Assembly: GCA_012520295.1 (NCBI GenBank) | Contig: JAAYOP010000058.1 | Coordinates: forward strand, 1-33,213 | Length of the DNA: 33,213 nt | DNA from: Clostridiales bacterium | GTDB lineage: Bacteria; Bacillota; Clostridia; Oscillospirales; Oscillospiraceae | Direction: 5' to 3' | In this document: positions 15,146-27,637 of the stretch, piece after piece | How positions within the stretch are numbered: the first letter of the stretch is position 1 | Layout of the letters: every line of letters begins with the position of its first letter | Translations under genes and position numbers: made by a program | Notes under the pieces: generated by a model | Told to the model about the DNA's origin: nothing | The model's database searches: none | Seen by the model: only the letters and a program-made list of their open reading frames with translations

Positions 15146-15457
15146 ATGGAAGCAAAACAGACTACGAAAAAACCAAAAAAAAGAGCGGCAGCGATAAAGT
15201 ATGACCCTGAGACCGACGCACTGCCGACAATGACCGCTTTTGGCGAAGGATATGTTGCAGAGAAAACAATTGAAAAAGGGAAGCAGTCGGGCTTACCCGT
15301 CATAACCGATGCGGAGCTGGTGTCTCTGCTTGCGGGAATGAACGTAGGGGATGAAATACCGCCTTCACTATATGAGGTGGTTGCGAAGATTCTTGTCTTT
15401 GTCGCTGAAATCGACAGCAGCTACGGCGAGAAGCTGAAAAAGGCGTCGGAAAACTGA
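15146..15457 (+). CDS. FlhB C-terminal-domain-like protein (YlqH/FlhX family)
   Basis: 103-residue soluble protein matching only the part of FlhB that follows its NPTH self-cleavage site: AAIKYDPETDALPTMTAFGEG, then SGLPVITDAELVSLL and VGDEIPPSLYEVVAKILVFV. There are no membrane segments and no NPTH motif. Such FlhB-tail proteins can replace the cleaved FlhB cytoplasmic piece that sets export specificity; here that is inferred. It starts 19 bases after the FliK-like gene behind GGGGAG, so the two are one operon, and the pairing supports a joint role in hook-to-filament export switching. Confidence 0.82.
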   Translation: MEAKQTTKKPKKRAAAIKYDPETDALPTMTAFGEGYVAEKTIEKGKQSGLPVITDAELVSLLAGMNVGDEIPPSLYEVVAKILVFVAEIDSSYGEKLKKASEN

Positions 15458-15572: not shown

Positions 15573-16625
15573 ATGACGGGCATTTCCAGGATTATTTCCG
15601 CTGCGAAATCCGCTGACACGGGCTCACACCGGAATGAGAGCGTAACAGAGCGGGACAGCTCATTCTCCCGGGTTCTTTCTGAAAAGCTAGAGCAGGATTT
15701 AAAGGAAAAGGCAATAACAATAACCTCGCCGTCATTGTCGGACAACGGAATATACGGCGGGCTCATAAATGGGACCGGTGCGGTGGAGATGCTTTTGGCG
15801 AATGCTGCCAGGAGCGGCAATATGGGTGACGCGGAAACAGCATTGTTTCTGGCATGCATAATGATGCAGTCCATGAACAGCAGCGAGGAAATGTCGGCCA
15901 TGCTGGGGGTGATATCACCTTTGATTTCAAATTTGAAAGGGGACATATCCGATCTGAAGGGCTCAATTATGCAATCGGACTTTTCACCGTATATTTTGAG
16001 CAGATTGGACATATCGGTATTCAAGTCTTCCATACCGCCCCAAATATCCCCCACGGGCCGGGCTATAGTACCTTCGGAGGCATGGAAGCCAACTTCACCA
16101 GCCATAGTCAGCACGCCGAACGACAGAAGTCCCCAAAAGCTCAGGCTGGTCATAGACCAGTTCAATGTAGAAACATCGGAAAGATACAGGCCATACAGGC
16201 GGGAAAGAGATACATACTGCAATATCTTCCTGTGGGACGTTACAAACGCCCTGAATTGTGAGATACCGCATTTCGTAGACCCGGTTACGGGAAATCCGCG
16301 AAAATATCCTGATATTGAGGGCGCCATAGAGCTTGGTGCAGTTCAAATTGAGGACTGGCTGGTCAAGTATGGAGGAGCCTACGGCTGGCGGGAGGTTGAC
16401 GCCGCTACCGCGCAGGAATATGCAAACAGAGGGAAGCCGGCGGTTACAACAGCCGGAAGTATAGGCCATGTGCAGGTTGTATGCCCTTCAAATGATGGTA
16501 AATTTGATCCGATACTCGGGGTGACCGTTGCCCAGGCAGGAAGCAGAAATACGGGATATACTCACATATCCAGGATATATGACAGCGTATCCTTGAGCAA
16601 AATACGTTATTTTGTTCACGAATAG
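15573..16625 (+). CDS. Flagellar-locus protein with cysteine-hydrolase-like C-terminal domain
   Basis: 350 residues, no signal peptide. The N-terminal 40-130 region is helical (GAVEMLLANAAR, TALFLACIMMQSM) and loosely recalls small helical flagellar domains. The C-terminal part (about 185-350) has a compact hydrolase look: DTYCNIFLWDVTNAL with C216 before a helix, EIPHFVD, a tryptophan/glycine-rich stretch GGAYGWREV, and SIGHVQVVCPSN with H299 at the start of a strand, followed by VAQAGSRN. Cys then His then a polar residue is the NlpC/P60 or CHAP order of cell-wall amidases and endopeptidases. In a flagellar operon this could clear peptidoglycan for the rod as FlgJ does elsewhere. Family membership is not certain. 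GGAGG precedes the ATG. Confidence 0.6.
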   Translation: MTGISRIISAAKSADTGSHRNESVTERDSSFSRVLSEKLEQDLKEKAITITSPSLSDNGIYGGLINGTGAVEMLLANAARSGNMGDAETALFLACIMMQSMNSSEEMSAMLGVISPLISNLKGDISDLKGSIMQSDFSPYILSRLDISVFKSSIPPQISPTGRAIVPSEAWKPTSPAIVSTPNDRSPQKLRLVIDQFNVETSERYRPYRRERDTYCNIFLWDVTNALNCEIPHFVDPVTGNPRKYPDIEGAIELGAVQIEDWLVKYGGAYGWREVDAATAQEYANRGKPAVTTAGSIGHVQVVCPSNDGKFDPILGVTVAQAGSRNTGYTHISRIYDSVSLSKIRYFVHE

Positions 16626-16669
16626 AAGCTGCGTAAGAAATATCGATAGGCTCACCCTTGGAGGCTTGG

Positions 16670-17890
16670 ATGACCAAACAGCTTGATTACTATAAAATAC
16701 TGAGGATTGAATACGGAGCCGATAAAGCCGACATAGTTGCCGCATACAGAAAGCTGTGCAAGATCTACCATCCGGATATAAGCCGAAATCCCGGCTCGGA
16801 AGAGATTATGAAGCAGATTAATAATGCGTATGCGGTATTGAGCAATGACGCAAAACGAGAGGCGTATAATCGCAGCTATGCCGCATCAAAACCACGGAAG
16901 CAAAATCAGTATGGAAATACTGCTGCCTCCCGGGAGACGCAGACTTGGAATTCCCGACGCGGCCGTACCTACGGTGAAACATATGGCCAAAGACGCGCAA
17001 AAGCGAAAAAAGCCGAAGAAAAAGCTTTTTTATCAGTGCAGGATTATTTATCATGCCTGCTCACACACAATTACCAAAGAGCATATGAGCTTCTCAGTGA
17101 CCGTGACAAGGACTATGTGACGCAGAAAGCCTTTACCGACTGGAGAGAAGCGGTGAACAGGCACTACATAATGCGTGAGTTTCAAATTAACGGATATGAA
17201 GCCGTGCTTGCAAACTCAATAAGAGCGGGAATGAGAGGACAGATATGGAAATATAACACCGACCTGGTTGAGCTGAACCTGAAAAATCAAGTTCTTGAAA
17301 GTCGCAATGGGGCGTGCTATTTAATACCTGAAAACGGGAAATGGAGAGTTTTGCTTGATGCCGGAGAGCTCACTGAGATCGCCAGGGTTATCCAGGAGCT
17401 TTCTCCATATCACCAAAAAAGCGAAATGGAGAAGTATTGGGAGCAGTATTGCGAAGATAATTGCAGACAGCTTGGTCTACTGAGCCTTTCAGGGTTTATA
17501 AAAAAAGCAGGGTCCGAGCTGTACGGATATTCCAGATATAAACAGTCGCTGATTCTTGTATCCTTTGCCGTAAAGCCCCTATCAAGCGGTTGGCCGGACA
17601 GGGTTAAGCTGGATATTTTAAAGACCCTATCGGAGACGCTGAAATCCTCTATACGCAGTTCTGATATTCCTGCGTATTTGGGAAACGGAGTGTTTATTGT
17701 CCTGTTTAGCCAGCTAAAAAAGCGCAGAGCAAGAAGCATAACAGATAGGTTGATTGAAAAGATGACAATAAAAGTTTATGAGGAGTTAAAGGTAAGAATT
17801 GATGTGCAGTCCACGAGTCTGGAGTATAAGGGCGGCTATTTGAGACAGTATATAGATTTTATTTTGGACAGTATTGAAAATAAAGCATAA
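16670..17890 (+). CDS. J-domain protein fused to an NTF2-like region and a degenerate GGDEF domain
   Basis: 406 residues from ATG 16670 (GGAGG five bases ahead; an upstream TTG is less likely). Residues 5-68 are a J domain with the HPD tripeptide (34-36) in KIYHPDISR, so it should stimulate an Hsp70. A basic linker (71-118) follows. Residues about 120-245 look like an NTF2-like domain (LLTHNYQRAYELLSDRDKDY, KWRVLLDAGEL). Residues about 265-400 follow the GGDEF pattern: RYKQSLILVSFA, LKTLSETLKSSIRSSDIPAY, then LGNGVFIVLF where active enzymes have LGGDEF. Metal and substrate residues are lost, so no cyclase activity is expected. It lies between the hydrolase-like gene and fliD. Confidence 0.78.
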   Translation: MTKQLDYYKILRIEYGADKADIVAAYRKLCKIYHPDISRNPGSEEIMKQINNAYAVLSNDAKREAYNRSYAASKPRKQNQYGNTAASRETQTWNSRRGRTYGETYGQRRAKAKKAEEKAFLSVQDYLSCLLTHNYQRAYELLSDRDKDYVTQKAFTDWREAVNRHYIMREFQINGYEAVLANSIRAGMRGQIWKYNTDLVELNLKNQVLESRNGACYLIPENGKWRVLLDAGELTEIARVIQELSPYHQKSEMEKYWEQYCEDNCRQLGLLSLSGFIKKAGSELYGYSRYKQSLILVSFAVKPLSSGWPDRVKLDILKTLSETLKSSIRSSDIPAYLGNGVFIVLFSQLKKRRARSITDRLIEKMTIKVYEELKVRIDVQSTSLEYKGGYLRQYIDFILDSIENKA

Positions 17891-17941: not shown

Positions 17942-18096
17942 TTATGTCCACTGAAAAAATGTTTTCGCATTTCTAAAAAGAGCATGTTTGCTCTTTTCAA
18001 CGGGCAAACATGCCCGTTTCAGATATACTGATTGACTGCATGAATCGATTTTCGGGCATATGCCTCAGATCCATTGCGCTGCAAACAGGCATTAAT
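17942..18096 (+). repeat. Structured intergenic repeat, copy C (155 bp, before fliD)
   Basis: Starts at ATGTCCACTGAAAAAATG with the small hairpin AAATG-CATTT, then two hairpins, AAAAGAGCA/TGCTCTTTT and AACGGGCA/TGCCCGTT, then CTGATTGACTGC, the GGGCATATGCC block shared with copy B, and ends GCAAACAGGCATTAAT. It has an extra middle hairpin module absent from copy B but present in copy D. It ends 21 bases before the fliD start codon and fills most of the 227-base gap, so it would lie in the fliD leader if the promoter is upstream. Confidence 0.8.
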
Positions 18097-18117: not shown

Positions 18118-19647
18118 ATGGCAAGTTCTATAAAGATAACCGGCATGTACTCTGGGCTTGACACTGATACCATCGTTCAAAGACTGATGGAGATTGAAAA
18201 GTATAAAGTAGACCGGCAGTTTCGAGCAAAGGTAACTCTGGAATGGAAGCAGGAAGCTCTGAAAAAAGTCGAAGATGATATAAAAGAGTTTAAAAATACA
18301 TATTTAAGTGTTTTGGGCAAGTTCAATATGTATTCAAAAAACATCTATAATGTATATGATGTAATTATGACAGGCTCAAACACATCCGCGGTCACAATTA
18401 AAGCCGACTACAGCGCTACCGCAGGTTCCCATGTAATAAATCAGGTCAACAGACTTGCCCGGGCAAGTGCCGTCCAGAGCGCCGAGAGTGTATCCGTGGG
18501 CAGTCAATTGTCTTCTTCAAACTCAACAAAGCTCAAGGATCTGGATTTTAAAAACTCTATGAATTTTGAAGACGGTAAGATATCGTTTAAAATCAATGGG
18601 GAGACCTTTACCTTCAGTGAAGAGGACACGCTGCAGAAGGTTCTCAATACCGTGAATTCAAACGGCAATGCAGGTGTTATCCTTAATTACAGTCGTCTTA
18701 GCGACACCTTTAAAATCGAATCAAAGAAAAGCGGAGCCGACTCCGAGATAGTTATCGAAAATATTACAGGAACGGCTTTCGGAGAAAACGGAGCTTTTGG
18801 TATAGCGACCGGTACATTTAAAAACGGGGTGGATGCCGAGGTAGTGATTGACGGTATCACTGTTACCAGATCATCGAATACCTTTACTATTGACGGTATT
18901 ACATACACCCTGAACGAAACAACCAAACCGGAGGCCAATATCGGTTTCAGGCTTACGCAGAATGTGGACAAGGCTGTGGAGTCGATAAAGGGATTTGTGG
19001 ATGCGTACAATCTCCTGATAATCAAGTTGGATACCCTGCTTATAGAACGGAAAAACAGCAGTGAGAGGGGCTATACCCCCCTGACCGAGGACGAAAAGAA
19101 GGCCATGAGCGACGAGCAGATTGAAAAATGGGAGGCTATAGCAAAAAAAGGTCTGCTGTACAATGACCGTTCCATTAGAAGCATGCTTGACAGGCTCAGA
19201 AGGACTCTTTATGCCACTGTATCCGAAGCGGGGATTTCACCTGCGCAGATTGGAATAAAAACCGGACACTGGGCAAACAAGGGCCAGATAACACTGGATG
19301 AGGATGCGTTAAGAGCGGCTCTTGAAAACGATCCTCATCAGGTGATGAGTGTCTTCACAAGCATATCATCTTCCGATGATGCATCTGTTAAATACAGTGA
19401 AAATGGCATTCTGAAACGCATAAGTGACGTATTTGACAGTTATACAAAGAGCTCAGGCATGACCTTGGCATCCTTGGGAGAAAATATTGAGGACATGGTT
19501 GAAAAAATTGATATGATGGAAGAAAAGATGCTGGAGCTTGAAGAGAAGTATTATCAAAAATATGCGGTTATGGAAAGAGCTCTGGCAAAGCTGCAGTCCC
19601 AGAGTGATTGGCTCAATAGTATGTTGGGCTCCCTTACTTATAGGTAA
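18118..19647 (+). CDS. fliD: Flagellar filament cap protein FliD
   Basis: 509-residue hook-associated protein 2, exported to the filament tip where it folds incoming flagellin. The N-terminus SSIKITGMYSGLDTDTIVQRLM is diagnostic. The middle domain contains KADYSATAGSHVINQVNRLA and variable beta-rich parts. The C-terminal domain has LRRTLYATVSEAGISPAQIGI, ITLDEDALRAALENDP, and a final coiled coil (MMEEKMLELEEKYYQKYAVM) ending in LNSMLGSL. AAAGGCAGG lies 8 bases ahead of the ATG. It is followed by fliS and a FliT-like gene, the classical order. Confidence 0.96.
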   Translation: MASSIKITGMYSGLDTDTIVQRLMEIEKYKVDRQFRAKVTLEWKQEALKKVEDDIKEFKNTYLSVLGKFNMYSKNIYNVYDVIMTGSNTSAVTIKADYSATAGSHVINQVNRLARASAVQSAESVSVGSQLSSSNSTKLKDLDFKNSMNFEDGKISFKINGETFTFSEEDTLQKVLNTVNSNGNAGVILNYSRLSDTFKIESKKSGADSEIVIENITGTAFGENGAFGIATGTFKNGVDAEVVIDGITVTRSSNTFTIDGITYTLNETTKPEANIGFRLTQNVDKAVESIKGFVDAYNLLIIKLDTLLIERKNSSERGYTPLTEDEKKAMSDEQIEKWEAIAKKGLLYNDRSIRSMLDRLRRTLYATVSEAGISPAQIGIKTGHWANKGQITLDEDALRAALENDPHQVMSVFTSISSSDDASVKYSENGILKRISDVFDSYTKSSGMTLASLGENIEDMVEKIDMMEEKMLELEEKYYQKYAVMERALAKLQSQSDWLNSMLGSLTYR

Positions 19648-25650: not shown

Positions 25651-27582
25651 CTAAACTATCAGGTCATTGACCAGCTTGGCGTATTCGGCGGGATCGGGGA
25701 TCTCCATTCCGGCAATCAGCAGTGACTGGAAGTATAAAAGCTTTGCATACTTGGAAGCCTTATCCTTATCGGTTTCCCAGGCGTTTTTCAGGGCATCAAA
25801 GGTTCTGTGGTCAGCATTGAGCTCAAGAACCCGCTCCGCCTTCAGCTTTTCATTTGCGTCACCGGGCAGGGAATTGAAATACTTCTCCATTTCAAGGGAG
25901 ATTGCGCCCTGTGTGGTCAGGCATACGGGATGGCTTTTGAGCTTATTTGACAACTTGACCGCGGCCACGCTTCCTCCAAGACTGTCTTTTACGAAGTCCA
26001 ACAGCTTTTTATGCTCCTTTTCCTGCTTTTTAAGCCCATCCCTGCTCTCCTGGTCCTCAATGCCAAGGTCATCCGCGTTAACGGATTTAAAGGGTTTCTC
26101 TTCAAAGGTGCCCAGCATATTCACAACAAATTCATCCGGCTCGTCGGTGAGATATAAAATACTGTAGCCCTTTTCCCTTACTGGCTCCGCCTGGGGGAGA
26201 TTGTCCAGACGGCTGATGCTGTCACCGCAGGCAAAATATATATACTTTTGGTCCTCGGGCATATTTGAGACGTATTCACTGAGGGGTATGGCTTTCTTAT
26301 CATTAGAGGAATAGAATATCAGCAGATCCTGCAGAAGCTCTCTTTTCATTCCATAATCGCCCAGAATACCGTATTTGAGCTGCAAACCGAAGTTTTTGAA
26401 AAACTCTCCGTAGAGCTCCGGATCTTCGGTCATGAGTTTCTTCAGCTCGCTCTTAACCCTCTTTTCCAGATTCCTGGCTATTACCTTGAGCTGCCTGTCA
26501 TGCTGAAGCATCTCTCTGGATATATTGAGTGACAGGTCCTGGGAATCCACTATCCCGCGGACAAACCGGAAGCACTCGGGAAGCAGGTCGGTGCATCTCT
26601 CCATAATCAGAACTCCGCTTGCATATAGCTGCAGACCTGCCTCATAATCCTTTGTATAGTAGTTATAAGGAGCTTTTTTGGGGATAAAAAGAATGGCCTT
26701 ATAGCTTACCAATCCCTCGGCGCTGATACGAATGATTCTCACCGGGTCCTCGGTGTCATAGTATGTGTCTTTATAAAACTTTGCACATTCCTCATCGCTG
26801 ACCTCGCTCTTGCTGCGCTGCCAGATGGGGATCATGCTGTTAATCGTCTCTTCTTCGGTGTATGTTTCATATTTTGTCTTTTTGTTTCCGTCTTTATCGG
26901 TTTCTTCTGTCTCCACAGCCCGGCTTTTTTCGATTTCCATCTTTATTGGATAGCGTATATAGTCCGAGTATTTTTTTATCAGCTGACGGAGCCTGTAGGT
27001 CTCCAGGAATTCACTGTAGTTTTCATCCTCGGTGTCGGGCTTTATATGCATAATAATATCGGTTCCGACAGTTTCCTTTTCGCAGGGAGTTACCGTATAT
27101 CCGTCTATGCCGGAGGAGCTCCATACGGCAGCCTGGTCATGACCGTAGGCCTTTGAAACCACCTCCACCTTATCGGAAACCATGAAGGCTGAGTAGAAAC
27201 CCACGCCGAACTGGCCGATAATGTTGATATCTTCCTCGGCTCTTTTTTCTTCATCGGTTTCGTTTTTAAATTTAAGTGAGCCGCTGTTGGCTATAACGCC
27301 CAGGTTTTTTTCCAACTCTTCCGGAGTCATTCCGATACCGTTATCCGAAACGGTGATTGTGCGGGCCTGCTTGTCCACTGTAATTTTAATTTCAAAATCA
27401 CTGCGGTTCATGCCAACCTTATCCTCCGTAAGGGCCAGATAGCATAGCTTATCGATAGCGTCGCTGGCATTTGATATTATTTCTCTGAGAAATATCTCCT
27501 TGTGAGTATAAATGGAGTTTATCATAAGCTCCAAAAGCCGTTTTGATTCAGTTTTAAACTGTTTCTTTCGTTTCGTTGCCAA
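25651..27582 (-). CDS. htpG: Chaperone HtpG (Hsp90)
   Basis: 643 residues from TTG 27582; GGAGG sits 8 bases ahead, whereas the further TTG at 27597 overlaps that ribosome site. ATP-dependent chaperone. Domains: N-terminal GHKL ATPase (about 1-230) with LREIISNASDAIDKL, VSDNGIGMTPEEL and GQFGVGFYSAFMV; a middle domain containing YLPKKAP-like FIPKKAPYNYY, FVRGIVDSQDLSLNISREML (catalytic Arg region); and a C-terminal dimer domain. Full family length. Transcribed from a sigma-A promoter at 27638-27665; no CIRCE or HrcA-type element was seen. Confidence 0.96.
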   Translation of the reverse strand: MATKRKKQFKTESKRLLELMINSIYTHKEIFLREIISNASDAIDKLCYLALTEDKVGMNRSDFEIKITVDKQARTITVSDNGIGMTPEELEKNLGVIANSGSLKFKNETDEEKRAEEDINIIGQFGVGFYSAFMVSDKVEVVSKAYGHDQAAVWSSSGIDGYTVTPCEKETVGTDIIMHIKPDTEDENYSEFLETYRLRQLIKKYSDYIRYPIKMEIEKSRAVETEETDKDGNKKTKYETYTEEETINSMIPIWQRSKSEVSDEECAKFYKDTYYDTEDPVRIIRISAEGLVSYKAILFIPKKAPYNYYTKDYEAGLQLYASGVLIMERCTDLLPECFRFVRGIVDSQDLSLNISREMLQHDRQLKVIARNLEKRVKSELKKLMTEDPELYGEFFKNFGLQLKYGILGDYGMKRELLQDLLIFYSSNDKKAIPLSEYVSNMPEDQKYIYFACGDSISRLDNLPQAEPVREKGYSILYLTDEPDEFVVNMLGTFEEKPFKSVNADDLGIEDQESRDGLKKQEKEHKKLLDFVKDSLGGSVAAVKLSNKLKSHPVCLTTQGAISLEMEKYFNSLPGDANEKLKAERVLELNADHRTFDALKNAWETDKDKASKYAKLLYFQSLLIAGMEIPDPAEYAKLVNDLIV

Positions 27583-27637
27583 GATATCGACCTCCAAAGA
27601 AATATATATTCTATCATATATTTTCAGCCGCAGAAAA

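Follow-up and report, generated by a model that had tools for sequence, protein, structure and literature searches.

A flagellum-linked J-domain protein with a degenerate GGDEF domain as a possible c-di-GMP receptor

A Clostridiales bacterium (GCA_012520295.1, contig JAAYOP010000058.1, positions 1-33,213; this whole stretch of 33,213 nt is called the window) carries, within a flagellar and chemotaxis cluster, the gene of a J-domain protein that ends in a degenerate GGDEF domain. We tentatively regard this protein as an accessory flagellar J-domain co-chaperone whose former diguanylate cyclase domain is now a c-di-GMP receptor. The observations behind this reading are the domains themselves, the loss of the catalytic site, the I-site pattern, the co-occurrence with flagella and the absence from a flagellate sister genome. 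The J-GGDEF protein may let c-di-GMP steer chaperones while the flagellum is built. The features discussed are the following.

15573-16625, + strand: unannotated gene, CHAP-like by eye, directly 5' of the J gene
16670-17890, + strand: gene of the J domain-linker-NTF2-like-degenerate GGDEF protein, 406 aa
16685-16870, + strand: J domain, residues 6-67, HPD at 34-36 (Pfam PF00226)
16889-16978, + strand: low-confidence linker, residues 74-103 (pLDDT <50)
17003-17413, + strand: NTF2-like (MecA_N-type) domain, residues 112-248, modelled alone (model, fold match)
17438-17887, + strand: degenerate GGDEF fold, residues 257-406 (Z 19.2 to 4zmm over 147 residues)
17654-17665, + strand: I-site residues R329 and D332 (RxxD), unchanged in all 23 complete members
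17678-17695, + strand: LGNGVF (337-342) replacing LGG(D/E)EF, the lost catalytic motif
17747-17749, + strand: R360, spaced like PleD R390 (of 23 members, 20 have R here and the other 3 have K)
18118-19647, + strand: fliD (flagellar cap), directly 3' of the J gene (Pfam FliD_C, E 7.4e-50 at 18829-19599)

The open reading frame starts with the ATG at 16670 and its last stop base is 17890; an alternative in-frame TTG lies at 16658, 12 bases 5' of the ATG. The CHAP-like gene is separated from it by 44 bases and fliD by 227 bases, in agreement with an earlier reading of the sequence alone, which had placed the gene directly before fliD. Other neighbors in the window were assigned by Pfam (FliK-type, FlhB C-terminal type, FlgN, DUF327 and FliD), and further ones are, judged by their sequences, taken to be CheA, CheC, CheD, CheW, CheR, CheB and FliS.

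To collect homologs, the genome itself and its relatives (60 genomes) were searched and gave four more full-length members (G006, G008, G028, and G037), the remaining matches being to the J domain only. The window protein alone had given no match as query in the first contig scan. A profile of the five members found 18 members, including the one in the window, among 394 genomes of the order, where 12 of the 30 matching genomes matched through the J domain only. The same profile found three more (G479, G506, and G605) among 391 genomes of the class. In total, order and class yielded 24 members, of which 23 are complete, the one in G270 being cut at a contig end. They are spread over six host families (f1, 5; f2, 14; f7, 1; f17, 1; f49, 2; f64, 1), a single one (f2) thus supplying 14 of the 24. 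G270 was excluded from the 24-member alignment, and G506 also from the alignments A3 and A4. The named records of the f2 type (L100-L104) are Oscillospiraceae MAGs, which we read from their isolate names as coming from termite guts. A mobile or plasmid origin was rejected, as none of the 92 matching plasmid records covered over 80% of the query, and so was a phage origin, viral contigs having given only three loci with matches the size of a J domain.

Pfam DnaJ matched residues 6-67 with an E-value of 4.4e-19 (68.8 bits, cut-off 27.8), which bears out the J domain with HPD at 34-36 recognized earlier, and HPD is present in all 23 complete members. With a J domain that carries HPD, the protein belongs to the J-domain (Hsp40) proteins. 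It is not a canonical DnaJ: it scored 74.4 bits with the NCBIfam model TIGR02349 against a curated cut-off of 377.2, and Pfam gave no match to the DnaJ C-terminal domain. The middle domain, when modelled alone, reached a pLDDT of 90.2 and a pTM of 0.85, and the model matched the NTF2-like N-terminal domains of PBP5/PBP2a (Z 12.6, rmsd 2.8, 116 residues) and also ketosteroid-isomerase-like proteins and TraM. The NTF2-like assignment was taken from this fold comparison because a sequence search of the PDB with the NTF2 part gave no match (best E 0.87); weak Pfam matches to MecA_N in two homologs (E 0.068 and 0.026) agree with it. The fold places the domain in the NTF2-like superfamily, as had been proposed before any model was made. 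Within this part, residues 117-231 (17018-17362) are matched at E 1.2e-4 by the PHROG family phrog_20642, which comes from phages and has no assigned function.

The C-terminal part has a GGDEF fold by profile and by structure, Pfam alone staying below its cut-off in the window protein (residues 316-369, 20.7 bits, cut-off 23.8). When a profile of the GGDEF part from 22 members was compared with the PDB, 47 distinct sequences matched at E<=0.01, the best at 2e-24. Most are GGDEF or diguanylate cyclase proteins by name, or GGDEF regulators already known (PleD, WspR, and FimX); a few, labelled "uncharacterized" or "ammonium transporter", align to the profile over the same stretch. For the whole protein, the AF2 model made from six sequences has a mean pLDDT of 73.4 and a pTM of 0.40, so that it does not fix the arrangement of the domains. 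Its residues 257-406 superpose on GGDEF structures with a Z of 19.2 and an rmsd of 2.1 over 147 residues. The sequence-only reading had named the lack of a GGDEF fold in this region as what would speak against it, and the fold is there. It had also seen the two catalytic losses, and both hold across the family: LGNGVF stands at 337-342 with GG(D/E)EF found in none of the 23 complete members, and the metal-binding Asp of the first strand is A300 in the window protein, with Asp in that column in one of 23 members. The protein therefore lacks both marks of a diguanylate cyclase, GG(D/E)EF and the first-strand metal Asp. Among the positions conserved at 70% or more in a background set of GGDEF domains, the family lost most of the catalytic or substrate ones (metal Asp, Lys, Asn, Gly-Asp, and GGDEF). 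None of the aligned members keeps the Lys or the Asn that follow the first strand, and a minority has the next Gly-Asp, while several scaffold positions are retained among them (the Phe of GGDEF, a Gly and an Asp further on).

An active cyclase was rejected on account of the lost catalytic residues. A residual cyclase, or a sensor that binds GTP as the GGDEF domain of Caulobacter CC3396 does, would agree with the presence of the fold, and a degenerate GGDEF domain that binds GTP is already known (PMC7288161). These same losses, from the metal Asp and GG(D/E)EF to the Lys, Asn and Gly-Asp, tell against it. Since most positions of the catalytic site are gone, GTP binding by the degenerate domain is judged unlikely from its residues, and we give this explanation very little credence.

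The I-site residues were kept. All 23 complete members have RxxD, and the residue at +31 from its Arg is basic (R or K) in all 23, so that the sequence of an I-site, RxxD with a third basic residue, is present. In PleD the I-site consists of R359, D362 and R390, plus R313 from the partner (PMC7288161), and the spacings 329-332 and 329-360 equal those of PleD 359-362 and 359-390. The secondary-site arginine R313 of PleD is not homologous between DgcR and PleD, and the DgcR residue equivalent to R390 is too distant for ligand contact in the inhibited structure (PMC8041772). Of the 153 columns in the GGDEF part, no more than three are invariant, those of E283, R329 and D332; the chance that two named columns fall among three invariant ones of 153 is 2.6e-4 if columns are alike, which they are not.

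To see how common the motif is, RxxD was counted in 54 GGDEF domain matches from the genome of the window and ten related genomes, 53 of which were usable, one having no residues at the motif. The set combines 14 matches from the genome of the window with 40 of 109 non-family rows, and these 40 were chosen by hand, eight of the nine weak ones on purpose and the rest from the strong ones. RxxD was present in 23 of the 35 domains with GG(D/E)EF and in 5 of the 18 without it; five of these 18 are near-canonical (GGDEY, GGDDF, and GGDEI) and may be active, and leaving them out gives 3 of 13. The Arg and the Asp, fixed in the family, are thus found in about half of the background rows. Against these counts the 23/23 of the family gives a Fisher p of 4.9e-7 (degenerate set) and of 0.0018 (canonical set). 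Taking one member per host family, RxxD is found in 6/6 vs 5/18 (p 0.0034), and after a 40% identity filter it is kept in 10/10 family members. RxxD and the basic residue are stated to be conserved in GGDEF members (PMC7288161). As the two are common in GGDEF domains generally, their retention is not diagnostic alone, and the background counts led us to give up the view that RxxD by itself proves binding of c-di-GMP. The loss of catalysis together with a fixed RxxD gives a pattern that, at the level of residues, fits a c-di-GMP receptor without being proof of one.

Besides the J-GGDEF protein, the genome of the window has 14 further GGDEF matches and two PilZ matches, one of which lies on contig C63 some 2.4 kb away from the match to FlhA, and 22 other carriers tested have between 1 and 20 GGDEF matches each at E<=1e-20. 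G037 (99% complete; L038, L134) has FliD and FlhA and a J-GGDEF protein with R, D and R intact; besides this protein its search gave no clear GGDEF match, only a fragment at E 0.42, so that the I-site residues persist there without a known source of c-di-GMP. Either cyclases were lost recently or missed in this genome, or the RxxD residues serve structure. The latter leads to another explanation, in which the protein is a flagellar co-chaperone independent of c-di-GMP, its GGDEF fold being a protein-binding or dimerizing module where RxxD is kept for stability. G037 speaks for it, as do the frequency of RxxD in GGDEF domains generally (8 of 9 read by eye, besides the 23 of 35) and E283, which is equally invariant and, in our reading, stands where many GGDEF domains have Glu. 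However, the low count of RxxD in the degenerate domains means that the fold does not need it, and the basic residue at +31 was retained too. We consider this explanation unlikely, although it is the most serious of the rivals.

The family is flagellum-associated in that it both co-occurs with and adjoins flagellar genes. FliD_C was found in 23 of the 24 carrier genomes (17/18 carriers of the order sample and the 6/6 others), the single exception, G280, being 64% complete. A match to FlhA was present in 19 of the 24 genomes, that in G028 being a fragment. In the order sample, FliD was present in 17/18 carriers vs 53/376 non-carriers (Fisher p 4.7e-13, kinship ignored), or 50/376 when only matches over the FliD cut-off are counted (p 2.0e-13, kinship again ignored). 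The J-GGDEF gene adjoins flagellar genes in six of the 24 genomes: that of the window, G008, G028, G180, G092, and G605. The order CHAP-like gene, J gene, fliD is common to the window (f1), G180 (f7) and G092 (f17), and the CHAP-like gene adjoins the J gene in G028 as well as in these three. The result expected if the flagellar connection were wrong, homologs spread without any link to flagella, was thus not what we found. G006 had been taken as non-flagellate when it gave no FlhA match; this was dropped once FliD was found there.

G001 is of the same genus, flagellate and 97% complete, and its gene cluster agrees with that of the window from CheA through CheB. There, fliD comes directly after the CHAP-like gene with a gap of 139 bases and no J gene, and the best match in a search of the genome covers the J domain only. 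The J-GGDEF gene is therefore accessory, and the flagellum does not strictly need it.

A protein found with flagella could also be a co-chaperone of general use in motile gut bacteria, without any direct client in the flagellum, its co-occurrence reflecting lifestyle and its place before fliD local history. No flagellar gene was seen beside the J-GGDEF gene in 18 of the 24 genomes, where some contigs are short; at least six f2 loci have it next to a metallophosphatase-like gene and in G006 it comes after a uvrA-like gene (both named by eye). In the tree the flagellar loci fall in two positions, so that flagellar placement needs two changes, on branches that are long and uncertain. This explanation does not account well for FliD in nearly all carriers of the order sample against about one in seven of the others, or for the separate flagellar placement in G605, a genome of another order, where the gene follows fliD and fliS. 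We find it rather improbable.

The sequence-only reading had proposed a J protein that brings Hsp70 to flagellar export or assembly, with the non-catalytic GGDEF fold as a protein or nucleotide-binding adaptor. The link to the flagellum and the non-catalytic domain fit what we found, but the conservation of RxxD and R/K makes a c-di-GMP receptor likelier than an unspecified adaptor. It is possible, and we suggest it with reserve, that the protein is a dedicated flagellar Hsp70 co-chaperone in which delivery of clients is gated by c-di-GMP at the retained I-site, control of assembly being exerted through protein folding and export and not through transcription or motor braking. We infer here the binding of c-di-GMP, the contact with DnaK, the clients and the direction of the effect. 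The messenger would occupy the I-site (R329, D332, R360) and, once bound, would cross-link or reorient the C-terminal domains as in PleD-type enzymes. Dimers of c-di-GMP cross-link the GGDEF domains of DgcR and PleD via RxxD (PMC8041772), and it is from this that the effect on the C-terminal domains would follow. Their altered state would change the availability of the flexibly tethered J domain to DnaK, the NTF2-like domain catching clients that the J domain would present to DnaK. Our guess is that the clients would most likely be late flagellar proteins (FliD or flagellin, for example) or chaperones of these, and that, as the likelier direction, high c-di-GMP would withdraw Hsp70 support and limit filament assembly. 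An alternative is a target that acts on flagellar transcription instead.

Several bacteria, a member of the Clostridia among them, lose motility or flagella when DnaK is missing. In C. difficile, a dnaK mutant is neither motile nor flagellated, and the same paper refers to dnaK mutants of B. subtilis and E. coli that are non-motile; for C. difficile, the authors attribute the loss of flagella mainly to a lower fliC transcript, not to export (PMC5727486). In P. aeruginosa, repression of dnaK blocks the export of flagellin, which accumulates inside the cell, and in vitro DnaK worked as a holdase with or without DnaJ (PMC11816700). The fliC transcript as cause and the DnaJ-independent holdase were counted against the flagellar co-chaperone reading. 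Through a J protein tied to flagella and equipped with a c-di-GMP-receptor-like domain, the messenger of the motile-sessile switch would have a direct and testable path to the supply of chaperones.

No account of a J domain-GGDEF fusion was found in print in searches covering the open-licence literature. The nearest published idea, as far as the excerpted texts go, is that of the PilZ-DnaK proteins CsdK1 and CsdK2 of M. xanthus and of the PilZ proteins in that species that carry a domain of DnaK or DnaJ, where a domain of the c-di-GMP-receptor type is likewise fused to Hsp70 parts; unlike here, the domain is PilZ instead of a degenerate GGDEF, and the excerpts mention no flagellar link (PMC10313047, PMC8316039). 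If our favored reading is true, a second receptor fold, besides PilZ, would be joined to the Hsp70 system. The DnaJ/CbpA family shares the J domain with HPD (NCBIfam matches), whereas the present protein is without a DnaJ C-terminal match and has the NTF2-like and GGDEF domains. In the YcgR-type PilZ flagellar brakes c-di-GMP also acts on the flagellum, but they act on the motor and have no known link to chaperones. PelD is a membrane regulator of an exopolysaccharide and is not known to have a J domain. It is similar, with other degenerate GGDEF receptors, in that a diverged GGDEF domain serves as c-di-GMP receptor through RxxD (PMC7288161).

Several observations in and around the window may be added. 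The product of the CHAP-like gene (15573-16625) gave no match in Pfam or PHROG and has Cys/His in its C-terminal part; the gene is kept in the flagellar clusters of G001, G028, G180 and G092, and its product is possibly a flagellar peptidoglycan hydrolase. At 15146-15457 lies a stand-alone protein of the FlhB C-terminal type, which covers Pfam positions 258-335 of 335. Rfam gave no c-di-GMP riboswitch in the window at gathering score, and a sigma-28-like promoter pattern had no exact match within it. Two adjacent hairpins are predicted at 17976-18018, between the J gene and fliD. The 227-base gap as a whole folds better than most of its shuffled versions (z -2.13), 3 of 200 of which were equally good; the hairpins had no Rfam match and are absent from the terminator scan list, and on the folding prediction they may be a terminator or a leader. 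A gene on the - strand at 25651-27597 was recognized by eye as HtpG (Hsp90)-like. Elsewhere in the same genome, L138 (G000:C17:29772-30236) has a GGDEF domain with EGGQF and an intact RxxD, and is by its residues a second candidate c-di-GMP receptor.
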